Shown here piece by piece: positions 30,708 through 39,207 of a DNA stretch of 64,000 bases. Each line of letters starts with the position of its first letter. The first letter of the stretch is position 1. Source of the stretch: Candidatus Thorarchaeota archaeon (GTDB lineage Archaea; Asgardarchaeota; Thorarchaeia; Thorarchaeales; Thorarchaeaceae); assembly GCA_008080745.1 (NCBI GenBank), contig SHMX01000006.1, positions 62,001 through 126,000 on the forward strand, in the 5' to 3' direction. Made by a program: the position numbers and the translations under genes. A model generated the notes under the pieces. It searched no databases. It had not been told where the DNA came from and saw only the letters and a list, made by a program, of their open reading frames with translations.

Positions 30708-33589
30708 TTAGTAATGTACTAGTTTATCAGGTTTGAAATGCTCCCCACAATTTGGACAATTAACTTTTCCAAACATATCCTGTTGTGAAACATGATATGC
30801 TGAAGTTGTCCAACATTTTGGGCATATGACACCACCAGGTTTTTCTAATGATTTCTTAGGACCTGTACATAATACATTGAGATAGATTATGATTCCAATT
30901 ATTGCAATAATTAAGCCAATAATTCCACTTAGAAAGATTCCAATCAAAACACCAACTGTAATAACTCCTCTTGCTGCATCTATGTTTTCACTTTCTTTCC
31001 TTGATGAGAACTCTTGTGTAGGAGTATATTGGGGTATCTTACGGGGTCTATCTTCTACCATTTTACTCGGAAACTCTTGAGTTCTAGGTACAGCTTTTCG
31101 AGTAACAGGTTTTGATTCTTTAGGACGGGAGTATCTTCTAATAATTGTATCAACCTGTTGTTCATCAAGATTAGAATCAGATTTTAGACTCGATAATGTT
31201 CTTTCTCTATCTTCCTGTAAACTTTTCCTGAAATCTGAAATCCATTTACTACTAATAATCAAATCAGCTGACACAATTATTTGAATCTCATCAAATCGTT
31301 TGTATTGAAGTGCCCTAACTAAATCGTCAAGAGGTATCTCTAACCTTTCAGCCTCATCAGAAAGAAAAATGATATTGAGATTTTGAGCACGTTGGATTAT
31401 TTCCTGAAATTTTTTATCAACAGTTCTAATTGTATCATCTTCCGTTTTTAATATTGTCAATCTACTTGAAGCAAGAAGTTCTGTAAGAATATGACTTGGA
31501 AGATGAAAAACTTGTTCTAATTCACTCATAGTAGTATATTCTTGAGAAAGAAGGTACTCACTGACCTTATCAACTAGAATTTTTCTTCTGTAGCACTGGT
31601 AATCATCTGTGAAGATAAGGTCTGGCTCAGAGCCATCAGCTATTTGTTTAATTTTGTCGGAAGATACTCCACTTAATTTTGATAGTTTTTGTATGTCGAG
31701 ATGTCCATTTTCATTCAAAGAAGTTCCAATTTTTTCACTAAGCCATAGAAATGAAACAGCAAATTCACCATCTTGTGAAAGAATGACAATCGGTGAATCT
31801 TCCACAATTTTTCGAGTCTCTTGATCTGATTTTCCAAGAATCATCCTCAAATCAATTATCGAAACAATGTCGTTATCCTCCATTGCTTTTTCTAACGTGG
31901 ATTTTATCTTCCTTCGAGATAGAACCATTACAGCTCCAATCACTCCAATTAGCATCACTGCGGAAACACCACCGTAGATTGATACTGTCAAAACAGCTAA
32001 TCCGTTATCACGCTCAATTGTGATGGAAACGGTGTCTGAAAATTCTCTACCAAGTATATCGATAACGACTATTCTATATTCATAGATTCCAGGTGTATAA
32101 TCATTAATCTCAACAACTACATCATTGTTCCAATTCGTTCTCTTGTCAATTAGCTCATCATTCCTGAAAACCTCATAGGAAAAAGGATAATTGGAATTAA
32201 TAGTCCATTTAATGGTTTGATTTGTTGCGGTATCAAGAATTGTAGAATTGGATGCTGAAAATATGGAGAGACTACCAGTATAGACAAAAATCTCCACAGT
32301 CGAACTCCAATCACTCTTAAAGGTCAAGTCATCAACTGAACGAATCCGAACATAATACGTCCCATCTGCTAATTCTGTAAAAGTGTGATTCGTGCACGAG
32401 GTAGTGATTGAAGTTGAGTCGATAAAGTCATCTTCTTCATCAAATTCAAGCTGATATTCAATTACCGAACCATCTGGGTCTGAACATTCCAACCAAGTAA
32501 TTACAACATCCCTAGTTGAGCTCCGAATATAATCCGATGAAGGGACGGGAACCTCAGGTAAATCATTCTCTGGAAGGGCAACTACAAAAGAAGAAGTAAC
32601 ACTCCAAGAACTTGAGATGCATATTCATTTGTGGATTTTATCCGAGTATAATAGGTTCCATTTGTAAGACCGCTAACTTCAATTGAAGTGTTTTCTACAG
32701 TATAAGAAGTAGGATCAGGAAATGAATCAGTTGTGTCTATGTGGATTGTATAAAAATCAATTGCGGCATCAACACACGTAGATTCATTCCATTCTATTAG
32801 CATGGTAGGTGTAACTACAGGGTCGGGGAGGCTTGTGAAATGAGGTGTTGTAGGAGTGGCTGATGTGACGTTCCACTCAAATGATTGAACGTGATCAGCA
32901 CCATAATTTGTACCATCATTCTCCATTGGTGACAAATCAGGACATGTGTCTCCATCCAGAGAATCAAAAGAGAGATGTAAAACAAGACCATCAGTAGCCG
33001 GATCAGAATTATCCATTGTCGACTCTATCTCTTCTTGTGTTAGTACTCGATTATAGATTCTTACTTCATCGATATACCCATAAAATTAGTCACCTGAATA
33101 AGTACTATGGGGTTTATTTCCAATACATAGAATCACATCAGAAGTCATGAAATCTCCCGGTGTTGATGCGGATACCTGAAGTTCACCATTGTAAAATATC
33201 TCAGTATCAGTACGATCGAAAGTCCCCACAACATGGACCCACTCATTTGCAGGAGGTAGTGGGGTTTCAGCATGCCCATTTGTCGAGGCACCAAATTCCA
33301 TATTGCCTTCATCAATGAACCGATAGGATTTTTCTAGTATCCGTCGATTTCCAGCCCAATCAGTAGCTTTGATCCAGGCCATTGCAGTTATCTCTTCAGT
33401 TGGGTTTAATGATGAATCGTCTTGAACCACAACCTCATCTGAACCATCAAAGTACAACGCCATATTCGTTTCTTGACTAGTATTGAAATCTTTGATGAAT
33501 TGCTTTTCTCCAAATGATTGCTGATGCATTATTGGAAAAATCGAACTCATTACAAGTATTGTTATGACCAAAATCCTTCCTTTCATCAT
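30708..33589 (-). pseudogene. Broken LamG/FnIII membrane protein with UFL1-like cytosolic winged-helix repeats
   Basis: Three frames together read as one protein. 33589-33086 gives a signal peptide and a LamG domain ending ...YSGD before TAA (33086-33088). The same frame continues at once with FYGYIDEVRIYNRVLT, the normal next LamG strand, to 32582. A one-base shift near 32604-32615 (KSTNEYASQ, then SWSVTSS) leads into 32492-30708. The rest holds FnIII-like domains, a transmembrane helix, several winged-helix-like units (DIQKLSKLSGVSSDKIKQI; TMSELEQVFHLPSHILTELL), a second hydrophobic helix pair and a C-terminal zinc ribbon (CPKC ... CPNCGEHF). One nonsense and one frameshift suggest recent inactivation or assembly errors; reading is otherwise intact. 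Confidence 0.72.
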
Positions 33590-34049
33590 ATATCCCTGAA
33601 AATATCAAGGTAGAAGAAAAGGATAAGTTATGTCTTTGCTAAATATAACATATTGATAGAAAATCAATTACAAAAACATACCAAAGTTGGATAGATAGAA
33701 GTCATAGATTTCGCAAAGTTTCTAGAATCTGTTCCAATCACGAATGATATCAAATCATTTTCCTTTTGAATTCTTTTCAAAAGCAACAAGGAGTAATTTC
33801 TGATATTGTAATAGATTCAATTAGGTTTTCTTTAACTCCAATACATAATATAGAGCATCCTAAACCGCATATACAATAATTTGAGTTCTATAAACTCTTC
33901 TTTTACTCGGAGAAAAGAAAGAGGATAAAATACTTACTTTTTCCCATTAGATAATATCATGGTTATGAAACAAATGTAACCAATTATTGAATGATGAAGG
34001 ATAATTCCCATCATTCTTTCTTTAGAAAAATCTTGGTAGTGAAATTAAC
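33590..34049. promoter_or_regulatory. Divergent AT-rich intergenic region
   Basis: 460 nt between the broken LamG gene and the winged-helix cluster, facing both ways. It is strongly AT-rich with several TATA-like stretches, for example near 33840-33890 and 33925-33960. I see no open frame with coding character, no RNA-like GC-rich fold and no repeat array. Its length exceeds that of most gaps here and would suit regulation of both flanking units. Confidence 0.35.
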
Positions 34050-34427
34050 ATGACAGAAGATACTGTAGATGGCATACTTATGAACACAATTCTTCCAGTT
34101 CTAGAAGATGTAGATGACATAAGTAAGATTGAGGAAATAATAGAAACATGTAGCAAAGATGAGGTCAAAATTTTACGTTTCCTTTTTGAAATGTTTAGAA
34201 AAGACCAAAGAAGATTCCCAATAAACCAAGCGGGGTGGAGAAACAAATATAGAATCCATTTAGGAACGGATATCTCTCAGAAGAAAATTTACTCGGAAAA
34301 TGGACCAATCGAATCTTTGATGGAATTGAATCTGCTCGAAATTCGAGATTCTCCTAATAGATGGGGAGGCCAGAAATACAACTATCGTATTCATGTAACT
34401 AAAAATATGTTATCTTATTTTGAGTAG
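34050..34427 (+). CDS. Soluble winged-helix-like protein of the GWRNKY/WGGQKY family
   Basis: 125 residues without membrane segments. Residues 1-50 are acidic helices. The C-terminal 75 residues carry a domain found twice more in the neighbouring genes: AGWRNKYRIHLG (61-72), DISQKKIYSENGPI (74-87), a helix ESLMELNLLEI and WGGQKYNYRIH (105-115). Helix, turn, helix, beta-hairpin order with conserved Arg and Lys suggests a winged-helix DNA- or RNA-binding unit; this is a fold guess. It is the first gene of a plus-strand run of three. I know no described family with these motifs. Confidence 0.7.
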   Translation: MTEDTVDGILMNTILPVLEDVDDISKIEEIIETCSKDEVKILRFLFEMFRKDQRRFPINQAGWRNKYRIHLGTDISQKKIYSENGPIESLMELNLLEIRDSPNRWGGQKYNYRIHVTKNMLSYFE

Positions 34428-34498
34428 GTAGATCTGATTGAATAATATTCCAATTAACAAAAATCCTATTAGTCTTAGTTCAGAGTACAGTAATTGGT

Positions 34499-35101
34499 AT
34501 GGAACAAATTCGTCAAATTGGCAACTCAACTCTTTCCAAAGAGTATTATCCGAATCCAGAAAACAAGAGAACAGTGAATATCTTATTGGAAGTTTCCATG
34601 CCGATTATCATGTTCTCGATTCTTTCTCTCGGTATTTCAATCATAATGCTACTTTATGCAGTTCTTATGATGCGAGGTGTTTTCGGTGCAAAATCTCGGA
34701 GTGATGAAGCTTTGAACCGTGAGAAGATATTGATTCCGGATTCCATTGCAAGGGAAATCACTTCAGATAACATTTTGAAATTTCTAGGTTCTCTACTTAC
34801 AGAGGACGAGGTAAGAATAATAATTTCATTAGCTAAGGCGATTATCACTGATAGGGGAAATTCCATTGAAGAAAACAGAGCAGGTTTACGAAACAAATAC
34901 CAAATTAGCTCTGAATCAGGTGTAGCACAAAGATCGGTCTATGATAAAGGAGGTCCAATAGACCGTCTTGTTGAAGTAGGAATCATCACTAAGATTGAAG
35001 CTGAAAAGAAAACTGGAGGGCAGAAATACCTCTATTCTCTTAGCAAAGAGAGTTATATTATAGCTCCACTCATCGCAGTGCTTGAGAGTAATGAAGAGTA
35101 G
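34499..35101 (+). CDS. Membrane-tethered winged-helix-like protein of the same family
   Basis: 200 residues. A single transmembrane helix spans about residues 34-58. After a linker the shared domain follows: AGLRNKYQIS (128-137), GVAQRSVYDKGGPIDRL (141-157), GIITKI and TGGQKYLYSL (172-181). The topology puts the domain in the cytosol if the short N-terminus is outside. The gene starts 71 nt after the soluble homolog and its stop TAG touches the frame of the next gene, so all three plus-strand genes are probably one transcript. A membrane-tethered transcription-factor-like protein is a reasonable reading, unproven. Confidence 0.7.
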   Translation: MEQIRQIGNSTLSKEYYPNPENKRTVNILLEVSMPIIMFSILSLGISIIMLLYAVLMMRGVFGAKSRSDEALNREKILIPDSIAREITSDNILKFLGSLLTEDEVRIIISLAKAIITDRGNSIEENRAGLRNKYQISSESGVAQRSVYDKGGPIDRLVEVGIITKIEAEKKTGGQKYLYSLSKESYIIAPLIAVLESNEE

Positions 35102-35140
35102 ATGTCTTGGGAAAGCCCTTTATTATGTAGGAGGATTATC

Positions 35141-37057
35141 ATGAAAACTACAAAGCTATTCAATATAGTCATTTGTTCTTTGTTGCTAGTTTTCATTTTA
35201 TATTCGGTTCCAAGACCCATTTCGCATCAAGCCAATTCATCATCAATTGCGATTTTACACAATTCTTCGGAGCCGATTACTATTAGAAATGAATCTGATC
35301 TGGTAGGTATGGATTTACCTGGAGGGGGTACACAAAGTAACCCGTTCTATATCGAAAATCTCCATATCCAAGCTTTCAATACATCTGCTCTATCCATTTC
35401 AGAAATAGAAAACTACTACGTAGTTATCAGAAACTGCATCTTCGAGTCAGTCACTGGTTTCCAATTCGTTTTGAATATAACACATGTTTTGAACTTGAGT
35501 ATCGACAATTGTTCATTACGATGTAATCAAGCACCTGCAATGAATGTAACAGATTGTATTAATCTCGAAATAACAAATAGTAAAATAGATGGAGCAGGAG
35601 CTATGTTTTGGTTTTGTACCAATCTCGAGCTTATCAAAAATGAGATTGGCGATTTATTTTCCTCATCTGCAACATACGCATCAATTAAATCATTAGCATT
35701 AGTATTCTCGGTTCATATGGAAAATTGTACTTCTGTGAGATTCGTTGACAACTGGATTCACAACACTCCAACTCATGGATTGTTCGTTCGTTATAGTAAT
35801 TCTATCAATGCTTCAGGAAACATCATTGAATCTCTAGCATCATGGTCGTTTTATTTTTCAAGAAGTCATGATATTGCGGTTTATGAAAATGCAATTTATG
35901 ATACTGATTGGGTACCCATTCGTTTCTACAAATCTCATAACTGTGAAGTTATCAATAACGATATCCAGAGAAGTGGAGAATGGGGAATTTATCTTGTGGA
36001 AGTGAATCAGACGAAAGTTATCCAAAATCATATCGCAAATAGTCATTTTACGGCGATAGCAATAGAAAATTCGAGTAACTGTGAAATTCTTGATAATACA
36101 ATTCGAGATGTAGAATCGAACGGTATTTCTATTGAAGATTCAAATCATCAAAAGATAGTGAATAATTCAGTAATTACTACCATGCATAATGGAATTCATG
36201 TAAGGTATTCTAGTGAGATAATTCTTAGTGAATGTTTTGTTAAAGGTTCATTATATGATGGAATAGTCTTCGACATGATAACTAATGGTAACATTTCAGA
36301 TTGTTATATAGTTGAATGTTTGAGAGAAGGTATCTTCTTCTATCAGACAAATTCGAGTGTTATTCATAAAACATGGAGTGTGGATAATTCATTTTCAGGT
36401 ATTCGATTAATACTAAGCAATAACATATCAATAACAAATAACTCGTTGTGCCGAAACGATGAATTTGGGATATCGCTATCAGAAACAGAATCATCGAAAA
36501 TATGCTACAATAGAATTGGACTCAACCATCAAAGAGCCTTCGACGATGTCGGAAACAATCAATGGAATTGCACAGATTTTGGAAATCTATGGTATGCATT
36601 CAATGGTCTTAACGATTCATCAACTTCAATTTTGGGATCCTCTAAGGCTTACGATTTTCATGCATATCGATGGTCTAGAACTATTCCCAACATCACATCA
36701 ATATCTCCGAGCCATATAATCAAACAAGACTTGGAAATCTTTGTCTTCGAGTTAGAATCACCAAATCTAGAATGGTATAAAATTTATGTAGACTCTGATG
36801 AAACAGTTTCACGTTGGGGACCAGCTACGACAATACGAACAACTTTGAATCTAAGTGTTGGAACGCATAACATAACGATCTGGGTTATCAACGCATTTGG
36901 AGAAACTAACTCAGTGTCACAGATAATTACCATTCATCCTGCTGAAACTAACATTAATGAAGAAGTCATAGTTTCAATAATCCTAATTTCAAGTGGGATT
37001 ATCCAACTTGTTGCTAGTTCTATCCTAGTTCTTGAAGTGAAAAAAATGAAAGAATGA
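35141..37057 (+). CDS. Beta-helix surface protein with C-terminal membrane anchor
   Basis: 638 residues from ATG 35141, which has a strong TAGGAGG eight bases upstream and gives a clean signal peptide (MKTTKLFNIVICSLLLVF); an ATG at 35102 is out-competed on both counts. The cap module TIRNESDL ... PGGGTQSNPFYIENL is followed by a long right-handed beta-helix with SxNCEVINN-type coils (about residues 70-480), a beta-sandwich domain (about 510-600) and a C-terminal transmembrane helix with the basic tail EVKKMKE. It is the third gene of the run whose first two encode winged-helix-like proteins, and it converges within 12 nt on a homologous receptor-like gene. Confidence 0.75.
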   Translation: MKTTKLFNIVICSLLLVFILYSVPRPISHQANSSSIAILHNSSEPITIRNESDLVGMDLPGGGTQSNPFYIENLHIQAFNTSALSISEIENYYVVIRNCIFESVTGFQFVLNITHVLNLSIDNCSLRCNQAPAMNVTDCINLEITNSKIDGAGAMFWFCTNLELIKNEIGDLFSSSATYASIKSLALVFSVHMENCTSVRFVDNWIHNTPTHGLFVRYSNSINASGNIIESLASWSFYFSRSHDIAVYENAIYDTDWVPIRFYKSHNCEVINNDIQRSGEWGIYLVEVNQTKVIQNHIANSHFTAIAIENSSNCEILDNTIRDVESNGISIEDSNHQKIVNNSVITTMHNGIHVRYSSEIILSECFVKGSLYDGIVFDMITNGNISDCYIVECLREGIFFYQTNSSVIHKTWSVDNSFSGIRLILSNNISITNNSLCRNDEFGISLSETESSKICYNRIGLNHQRAFDDVGNNQWNCTDFGNLWYAFNGLNDSSTSILGSSKAYDFHAYRWSRTIPNITSISPSHIIKQDLEIFVFELESPNLEWYKIYVDSDETVSRWGPATTIRTTLNLSVGTHNITIWVINAFGETNSVSQIITIHPAETNINEEVIVSIILISSGIIQLVASSILVLEVKKMKE

Positions 37058-37068
37058 CAAAACGGTAT

Positions 37069-39207
37069 TTAGCTCAAATCCAACATTATTTGAAATATCA
37101 GATTTTCGATGTTGATTCGATATTTAAACCTCTGACCACCCCAATTACAAGAAGTATAATTCTCTGAAATTAGGGTATTTTTCAGTAATGAATACATCAC
37201 ACCATTTTGACTGTAAATTTGCCGCTTGGACACCTTGGCTCCCATATGTATCTGGTATTTATTTCTCCATCCATATTCGTAAGGAGTTAATGAGTAGTCA
37301 CTTGCTAAGTCTTGGAGGAATTCATTAAATAGATAATAAATAACAGAATACATTTCACGATTGAGAATACTATCAAGAAATTTCCAACACCTATCGATTG
37401 TAAGATTTGAGAATATACGTTGTAAATTGATTACCAAGTATTGTGAGTAGGGGTACATCAGTGTACGTTCCTTGATTTTTTCTAATAATAGAAAAGCCAC
37501 GCCTATAGGAAATATAATAAGAACGAAGATTTTCAAGATTGGGGTCAGATTAGATAGAATCAATAGTGGAGGTTGTAATTCGTAATCAAACGTATTCGTG
37601 CTATTGATATTACCATCAAAATCTTGGACAATAATTTCAAATTGGATAACACTGAAACTTCCAATCATAATATCTGTTGACCAACCACATTCATTTTTTG
37701 TCATCTCTGTAACATTCCAGATATTGGATGAGTCAATCGAGTAATTTAACCTCATTATTTCAATTGAAGAATTAGTGGAAGCAACAATTGTTACATTTGA
37801 CATATCATGGTAGATTTCCAAATTCAAGGATATCGAAGGAGGTTTATAGTTAATAGACTCCCTCATACTGATTACGACATCAACACTCATGATAGGATAA
37901 AGGTCTTGTATCCCGAATTCAATTGTGTAAGGTTCGTCAGCAATAAGATCTCCGTCATCATCTTCGCCCTGATATGAGGCATAATAATTTCCGTATTTCG
38001 CATTACAGAATTCTATGAAACCAAGTTCTGTACCACTGATTAAATCTGAGGAGGGTTGAATTAAAGCGTTTACGAAAACTCGTCCAGAACTTTCCCAAAA
38101 ATTCATGCTCGTAAGCATTGACCGATTTATAATATTTCCAAAGATACAGACGTTCTCTACTTCAGTACAAGATAGACCCCAACCTTTTGACATTATAATA
38201 TCATTCAGAACTATATCGATTCCTCCAGATCTATAAATTTCAATTCCATCTCCACTTGAATAGTATACAGAATTAGATGAAATGGTAATATCTTCAGTAT
38301 ATTGAACCAATAAAGAATGACAATTCTCCAATGTGTTATTTTGAATATTGCTATCAATACACTCAAAGAACCTTATTCCTGAGCGATTGGATTGTATAAT
38401 GAGATTGTTACTGAGAGTTGCATTTTTTGTTCTGCAAACATAGATTGCATTTTCATTACTCGACGCAATGGTATTGCAAGATATTATGGAATTGTTTGTG
38501 GTGTCAACGAATATACCATTAAGAGATGATTCAAATATTGAATTATTTTTAATATATATATCTGAACTCTGAATAACATCAATCGCATCGCCATTCGATT
38601 CAAACAGATTTCCGAAAATAGTAACTTCTGATGCATAAGCGACTTCAATCCCAATATTGGATCCCGAAATGTTATTGTGAGTCAGGATTGTTTTTTGTGC
38701 TTCATGGACTTTTATGGCTCTTTTAGGCTGATTGAAAAAGGAACAATTTTGAACGAGCGAATCAAAACCGCTAATATGAATTAGCTCCTTTGTTATATAT
38801 CCTGCATAGAACATGCAATCAATGAGTTCGACGATAGAACCTTCATGGGAAATAAAATACCACTCAAACTCCTCAATCGATCTAATGTACGTGTTTTCTA
38901 GTTTCAGGAAACCACCGTTTTTTACTATGATATTGCAATAATCTTGAGTAGCAATTATTGTGCAATTATCAAAGAGTATTCTTTCGTCTTTAGAAATATA
39001 AATTGAAGTTTCTAGTTCGAATATTTTGTTGCGGTAGACACTTGTGTAATCATTACTCTTCTGCTTAATCATGTTAGAATCAAAGTGAGATGAGTAGGGA
39101 ATAATATCAGGGAATCCAAAAATAGAGGTGCCAAATATCTGTAGGGAAAATAGTGATAGGAATAACAATGAAACTATTCGTTTACTATCAAATCCTGCCC
39201 TTCTCAA
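37069..39207 (-). CDS. Receptor-like protein: beta-helix ectodomain, membrane span, winged-helix-like tail
   Basis: 712 residues. Signal peptide at the start (SLLFLSLFSLQIFG). A beta-helix covers about residues 70-400 (SDIYIKNNSIFESSLNGI-type coils), then a segment with DDDGDLIADEPY, common in archaeal beta-helix proteins, and a beta-sandwich. A transmembrane helix lies at about 556-575. The cytosolic tail of about 135 residues contains helices and then the domain shared with 34050 and 34499: YGWRNKYQIHMG (645-656), KVSKRQIYSQNG and WGGQRFKYRI (689-698). One polypeptide therefore links a surface recognition module to the same cytosolic domain that its neighbours carry alone or tethered. Confidence 0.76.
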   Translation of the reverse strand: MRRAGFDSKRIVSLLFLSLFSLQIFGTSIFGFPDIIPYSSHFDSNMIKQKSNDYTSVYRNKIFELETSIYISKDERILFDNCTIIATQDYCNIIVKNGGFLKLENTYIRSIEEFEWYFISHEGSIVELIDCMFYAGYITKELIHISGFDSLVQNCSFFNQPKRAIKVHEAQKTILTHNNISGSNIGIEVAYASEVTIFGNLFESNGDAIDVIQSSDIYIKNNSIFESSLNGIFVDTTNNSIISCNTIASSNENAIYVCRTKNATLSNNLIIQSNRSGIRFFECIDSNIQNNTLENCHSLLVQYTEDITISSNSVYYSSGDGIEIYRSGGIDIVLNDIIMSKGWGLSCTEVENVCIFGNIINRSMLTSMNFWESSGRVFVNALIQPSSDLISGTELGFIEFCNAKYGNYYASYQGEDDDGDLIADEPYTIEFGIQDLYPIMSVDVVISMRESINYKPPSISLNLEIYHDMSNVTIVASTNSSIEIMRLNYSIDSSNIWNVTEMTKNECGWSTDIMIGSFSVIQFEIIVQDFDGNINSTNTFDYELQPPLLILSNLTPILKIFVLIIFPIGVAFLLLEKIKERTLMYPYSQYLVINLQRIFSNLTIDRCWKFLDSILNREMYSVIYYLFNEFLQDLASDYSLTPYEYGWRNKYQIHMGAKVSKRQIYSQNGVMYSLLKNTLISENYTSCNWGGQRFKYRINIENLIFQIMLDLS

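Follow-up and report, generated by a model that had tools for sequence, protein, structure and literature searches.

A lineage-specific winged-helix family, predicted to bind DNA, accompanies surface-protein genes in Thorarchaeia

S, T and R are three proteins of a Candidatus Thorarchaeota archaeon that share a single winged-helix domain and are encoded, together with the beta-helix protein B, by four consecutive genes in a 64,000-nucleotide stretch of contig SHMX01000006.1, referred to here as the window. They belong to a lineage-specific family that is predicted to bind DNA, and it appears fairly probable that this family controls local surface-protein genes, from the cytoplasm in the case of S and from the membrane in the case of T and R. 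The control would reasonably be expected to be exerted on transcription and to be local, where S probably targets both its own promoter and the adjacent surface gene; the proposal is derived from the fold of the domain, its charge, its gene neighbourhood and a conserved element upstream of S.

The four genes of the locus

S is a soluble winged-helix protein of 125 aa encoded on the plus strand at 34050..34427, and its domain spans approximately residues 35-125. Its assignment is based on homology with the domain of T and R, on a winged helix predicted by AlphaFold2 and on an ortholog in the sister genome G001. T (34499..35101, plus strand, 200 aa) is a tethered form, composed of an N-terminal membrane helix (approximately residues 28-58) and a cytosolic C-terminal winged helix (approximately residues 92-200). 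The outside segment of T is short and does not form an ectodomain, and T forms are present in many relatives. B (35102..37057, plus strand) is a secreted beta-helix protein (Pfam Beta_helix 8.6e-30, NosD 2.4e-29) with one membrane helix at its C-terminus, followed by an inside tail of about 8 residues; its start is probably the ATG at 35141, with an AGGAGG stretch ahead of it. R (37069..39207, minus strand, 712 aa) comprises a beta-helix ectodomain, one TM helix (approximately residues 547-575) and a cytosolic winged helix encoded at 37072-37392, and is recognised by a Pfam NosD match (6.8e-20), by the homology of its domain to S and T and by its conservation, which is confined to G001. The ORFs found at these positions agree with the original prediction that three of four consecutive genes carry a common domain in this order and topology.

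Both beta-helix proteins exceed the Pfam gathering scores, B with 103.9 and R with 71.6 bits against 25.9 for beta-helix (PF13229/PF05048), and B with 102.7 and R with 71.9 bits against 23.6 for NosD. R was rejected as a nitrous-oxide reductase maturation protein NosD, as it reaches 59 bits against an NCBIfam cut-off of 300 (TIGR04247) and the likeness is to the beta-helix only. Comparison with solved structures gave no match for R and a single marginal match, to a C5-epimerase, for B, and PADLOC matched none of S, T, B and R to known anti-phage defence at E up to 0.1. G001 retains the four genes in unchanged order, at 51-64% identity. Between G000, the window's genome, and G001 the pN/pS of all four genes is 0.33-0.46, which denotes purifying selection, the ratios being rough with synonymous sites near saturation; the winged-helix part of R is its most constrained part, with a pN/pS of 0.24 that is rough on the same account.

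A gene for a LamG/Fn3/TM protein (window 30708-33589, minus strand) is oriented divergently from S and is broken by an in-frame stop at 33086-33088 and a later frameshift near 32490-32590. The cytosolic part of its product comprises what by appearance is a winged-helix row, followed by a pair of TM helices and a zinc ribbon, and gives a weak UFL1-like match that lies below the cut-off (PF09743, E 0.021).

The shared domain and its fold

BLASTP matches the domain of S to that of R at 7e-20, S to T at 4e-15 and T to R at 7e-12, and at the level of sequence the three copies are homologous, chance being excluded. The domain extends over approximately 90-100 residues and not over the 65 or so that had been assigned to it, since its first helix precedes the GWRNKY motif. 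Its hallmarks are G-W-R-N-K-Y, I-Y...G and W-G-x-Q-K...Y; in an alignment of 31 copies G, N and G are invariant and D, R, I, Y, G, W and Y nearly so, and the core carries a net positive charge in 31/31 copies.

AlphaFold2, supplied with an alignment of 23 rows, models S with an overall pLDDT of 84.7 and mostly above 90 within the domain, in which helices at 36-53, 66-73, 77-80 and 86-92 and strands at 96-100 and 110-114 make up a winged helix. In the model of T this domain follows a membrane helix at residues 20-64. A winged-helix-like fold had been suspected at the outset, and the confident models of S and T bear this out. In both of them the third (recognition) helix is broken at the invariant Gly, a break for which we know of no counterpart in textbook winged helices. 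All Foldseek matches have E values above 0.001, yet their probability is near 1 for many; among the matches listed the winged helices of MarR, ArsR, TrmB, TFE and origin-recognition proteins are foremost, and ESCRT-II is absent among the 50 listed for either model.

No family of Pfam, NCBIfam or PADLOC reaches its cut-off for the domain, which had indeed been described as undescribed-looking. Its profile finds nothing significant by sequence among solved structures, the window proteins have no significant match among regulator families, and the open-licence literature yielded no description of the family. Sta1 and Lrs14 (NF053606, NF040939), which are soluble single-domain regulators, are the nearest named sequence families, with weak matches in 9 and 6 of the 31 copies (best 4.6e-4), yet the copies fall far below the curated cut-offs, T scoring 17.8 and 14.9 bits against NCBIfam values of 80 and 90. 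Weak matches to TrmB (PF01978), short of its gathering score, occur in 6/31 members (best E 0.0019, one domain copy), and S, T and R of the window are not among them.

Distribution and ancestry of the family

The 31-row profile matches 18 of the 228 genomes of the phylum at E 1e-4, and 16 of these 18 belong to the window's own family within Thorarchaeia. In this search of Asgard genomes the S, T and R forms fall in one homologous family. The division into soluble, tethered and receptor forms holds in so far as one family exists in three forms, but the term receptor fits only R, because T lacks an ectodomain. A pattern-based scan of 84,980 species with the S-only alignment as query, from which records close to the window's genome were possibly excluded, retrieved the S form at 11 loci only. 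Nine of these are labelled Thorarchaeota, one "archaeon", and one is the sister genome RBin_111, labelled Lokiarchaeota. As the 31-row profile search places these genomes in the window's own family, the window is assigned to Thorarchaeia and the Lokiarchaeota label is probably a submitter's error. The window's 3.16-Mb genome contains two more copies of the domain, one of which (G000:C1:583633-583932; L005, L050) is interrupted by TAG and is apparently a decaying gene.

Distant copies occur inside quite different proteins of two outlying genomes (L091/L092 in G108 and L093 in G059), and a phylum-wide origin of the domain was rejected. The G108 copies (L091:1309-3168, E 3.5e-12; L092:281-1753, E 2.2e-8) form the C-terminus of unnamed proteins of 407 and 491 residues, and at L091 a neighbouring protein of 201 residues looks CARF-like by eye. 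The G059 copy ends an AAA_16-TPR protein of 1149 aa (L093:365-3811) on a contig of 5 kb from a MAG that has 9% contamination, and its domain matches nothing else in 224 genomes at E 1e-5. Its motif SGWR...PKSNVYG...GERGRGG suggests a broader superfamily of archaeal winged helices that Pfam does not list.

In eight genomes (G000, G001, G006, G008, G026, G031, G035 and G227) the S and T genes are immediate neighbours, often convergent and overlapping by a few bases, and in G011, G021 and G033 a single surface gene separates them. Apart from a single stray row on a long branch, the tree resolves S and T as two clusters across genera, with 3 label changes against a mean of 11.8 after shuffling; the S/T pair is therefore older than the genera. 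R is found only in G000 and G001, which represent one genus, and its domain groups with the S forms of the same genus with moderate support (88/83), so that R is by appearance a late local fusion and not the original form. Descent of R from T was considered, as its TM helix and linker can be aligned with those of T, but was rejected on the position of its domain with S in the tree. The one-component surface-to-gene device that was first envisaged thus survives as the one-protein form R of a single genus, whereas the widespread form consists of separate S and T beside a separate surface protein.

Surface genes and other neighbours

Genes for single-pass beta-helix proteins adjoin the S/T block in four genera (g1, g6, g8 and g11), in the window as well as at L032, L033, L035, L036, L037, L038, L039, L040 and L094, and a further one lies near the T form of L047, on a contig without S. 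LamG neighbours are also present at L047 and L033, an arylsulfotransferase-like membrane protein at L036, GlcNAc-epimerase-like proteins at L041 and L095 and an FG-GAP protein additionally at L041. The placement of the domain beside genes for beta-helix or LamG ectodomains is thus a recurrent one, with FG-GAP neighbours added. S is often divergent from the surface gene, which is the layout of a local regulator. As these genomes contain 13-85 beta-helix stretches each, a single adjacency is unremarkable; a linkage that persists through four genera while the gene order varies is hard to put down to chance.

In G227 (L094:3909-9219) S and T are each divergent from a beta-helix-type surface gene on their outer side, and the T-side protein has 766 residues. 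Lone copies of S and T adjoin housekeeping genes. In two genera, lone T copies, including one from the window's genome, have as their neighbour a gene for a small GTPase of the Arf/Ras type whose N-terminal part is longin-like (L049:7104-9632, L046:6134-8770, L044:6235-7782 and L045:5405-6985), and at L049 and L046 a PRTase-like gene is situated between the two. The longin likeness concerns the N-terminal 100 residues and is our own reading by eye.

An element upstream of S

Alignment of the regions upstream of S reveals a conserved block, a 20-base inverted repeat with the core GAAAAAGACCTATNCTTTTT that is located 112-132 nt before the S start. A search for this core in 29 whole genomes with up to two mismatches returned ten sites, of which two are stray and eight immediately precede S, with a single site apiece in G006, G008, G011, G018, G021, G031, G033 and G227 (three genera); it is found in 0/13 genomes of the same family that lack the domain. 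The pattern was derived from the loci of seven of the eight site-bearing genomes, and the G018 site and the near-absence elsewhere are therefore the independent part of the test. In g6 and g8 the sequence GGTTC-N4-GAACC or a close variant follows 16-18 nt beyond the element. Diverged forms occur at L039 and L035 and, by eye, at L042/L043 and L032.

Pairing in nearly all ten sites is restricted to the A5/T5 core, so a strong palindrome was rejected and a DNA dyad and an RNA hairpin look alike here. Two other candidates were discarded: GTTATCTTTTTCTAAC before B is specific and resembles a related half-site but is confined to genus g6, and GGTTC-N4-GAACC as a genome-wide regulon motif is at background level (1-8 per genome against 2-10 in the control), and carries meaning only where it stands at a fixed position upstream of S. 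A doubtful counterpart of the element in the window lies at 33909..33982 (plus strand), placed by eye and by analogy with the relatives. It consists of half-sites spaced much as in the relatives, GGAGAAAAG...CTTTTTCCC (33909-33945) and, after 14 nt, TGGTTA-N11-TAACCA (33960-33982), a region in which the window's genome has no match to the pattern at 2 mismatches.

Proposed mechanism and alternatives

Dimers of S and of T, or perhaps mixed ones, would occupy the promoter of S and of the adjacent surface gene. T would link this promoter to the membrane or to the single-pass protein B; the inside tail of B is presumably too short for signalling alone, and T may supply the inside domain, and in R, as a fusion, both parts would be joined in one chain. 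We infer DNA binding, dimerisation, the S/T partnership, the protein that binds the element, the T-B contact and sensing, and, more weakly, that an outside signal is carried by T or R, in view of the architecture of R, the absence of an inside domain from B and the demonstration by R that both parts can be fused. A role as regulators is favoured by the confident winged-helix models with their regulator-type structural neighbours, by the basic core of all copies, by the weak likeness of several members to Sta1/Lrs14 and TrmB, by the pairing of S and T next to surface genes in four genera, by the frequent divergence of S from a surface gene, by the element before S at one place per genome in eight genomes, at a fixed distance and, in g6 and g8, with a fixed spacing to the second palindrome, and by the conserved fusion in R with its constrained domain. 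Against it, no Foldseek match falls below E 0.001 and no family scores above its cut-off, the break in the modelled recognition helix would set the domain apart from textbook winged helices, the element is unclear in the window, is tied to S and was not found before T, B or R, and lone S and T copies stand beside housekeeping genes. It is possible, if rather unlikely, that the family constitutes a split transmembrane regulator, in which an old S/T pair reads separate single-pass beta-helix, LamG or propeller proteins via membrane helices, uses one dedicated operator and has once condensed into R, with a second tethered branch that cooperates with small GTPases of the longin type.

Protein contacts are a common role of winged helices, and those of S and T could be interaction modules at the membrane, together forming a scaffold between surface proteins and machinery on the inside, for instance small GTPases or ESCRT-like partners. 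The interrupted recognition helix, the longin-like Arf/Ras GTPase genes beside the lone T branch in two genera and a membrane tether that is unusual for a DNA binder all fit this; we nevertheless hold it to be unlikely, given the basic core of every copy, structural neighbours that are mostly transcription regulators or replication-origin and TFE winged helices, the missing ESCRT-II among the 50 matches listed for either model and the dedicated promoter element that accompanies S. A still less probable view is that S and T regulate something else, such as S itself or cytoplasmic genes, that the surface genes are mere neighbours and that R arose as a fusion by chance and has no part in signalling. 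Beta-helix genes are numerous and surface genes cluster, lone copies sit among housekeeping genes, and the element stays with S where the neighbour has changed (G033, G018 and g11), but four genera retain the linkage in differing gene orders, and R is preserved in two species, most strongly in its domain. The element itself might, though somewhat doubtfully, be the core promoter or a structured leader of S and not an operator of the family, as it is A/T-rich, is followed downstream by a TATA-like sequence, retains the asymmetric centre ACCTAT and pairs through its outer arms in some sites only. A general core promoter would be expected at further places in each genome, whereas the element occurs once, at S, and no Rfam family was detected in the window's region, which is weak evidence as the scan covered the window alone.

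Relation to known membrane-bound regulators

Transmembrane transcription regulators (TTRs) combine a DNA-binding-type domain and a membrane helix in one protein and are mostly single-pass (PMC10269533). T and R share this plan, and differ from TTRs in that a soluble paralog is encoded alongside, that their domain belongs to no listed family and that the sole form with an ectodomain is of the beta-helix type. At least one predicted membrane region is present in T (helix 20-64) and in R (TM at approximately 547), and S, which has no membrane helix, is not a TTR; for a predicted DNA-binding domain there is the winged-helix fold with its regulator-like neighbours, with no DNA-binding family above cut-off. 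T and R are best read as putative transmembrane transcription regulators.

ArnR and ArnR1 of Sulfolobus are membrane-bound HTH regulators of surface structures (pili, archaellum), and ArnR has its HTH at the N-terminus and two TM helices at the C-terminus, besides HAMP-like and sensing parts (PMC6396743). T and R are like ArnR only in general plan (PMC6396743), as they have one TM helix ahead of a C-terminal winged helix. The bacterial receptors ToxR and CadC unite a winged helix, one membrane helix and an outside domain, and one protein takes the signal to the promoter (PMC8517210, PMC5430869). By analogy R, with the same three parts, would work in a similar way, although its DNA-binding-type domain is C-terminal and that of ToxR/CadC N-terminal, which reverses the order. 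To our knowledge the domains of ToxR and CadC are unrelated to those of R.

The S/T paralog pair, the beta-helix fusion and the unlisted family set the system apart within the general plan known from TTRs, and the 20-base element upstream of S is new here. Because the element is conserved, a single purified domain and a DNA fragment would suffice to check the claim of DNA binding. Sensing of the environment and gene regulation are poorly understood in Asgard archaea; if the proposal is true, it would describe a compact and testable way of sensing in the closest archaeal relatives of eukaryotes, operated by a winged-helix family that is missing from the searched libraries.
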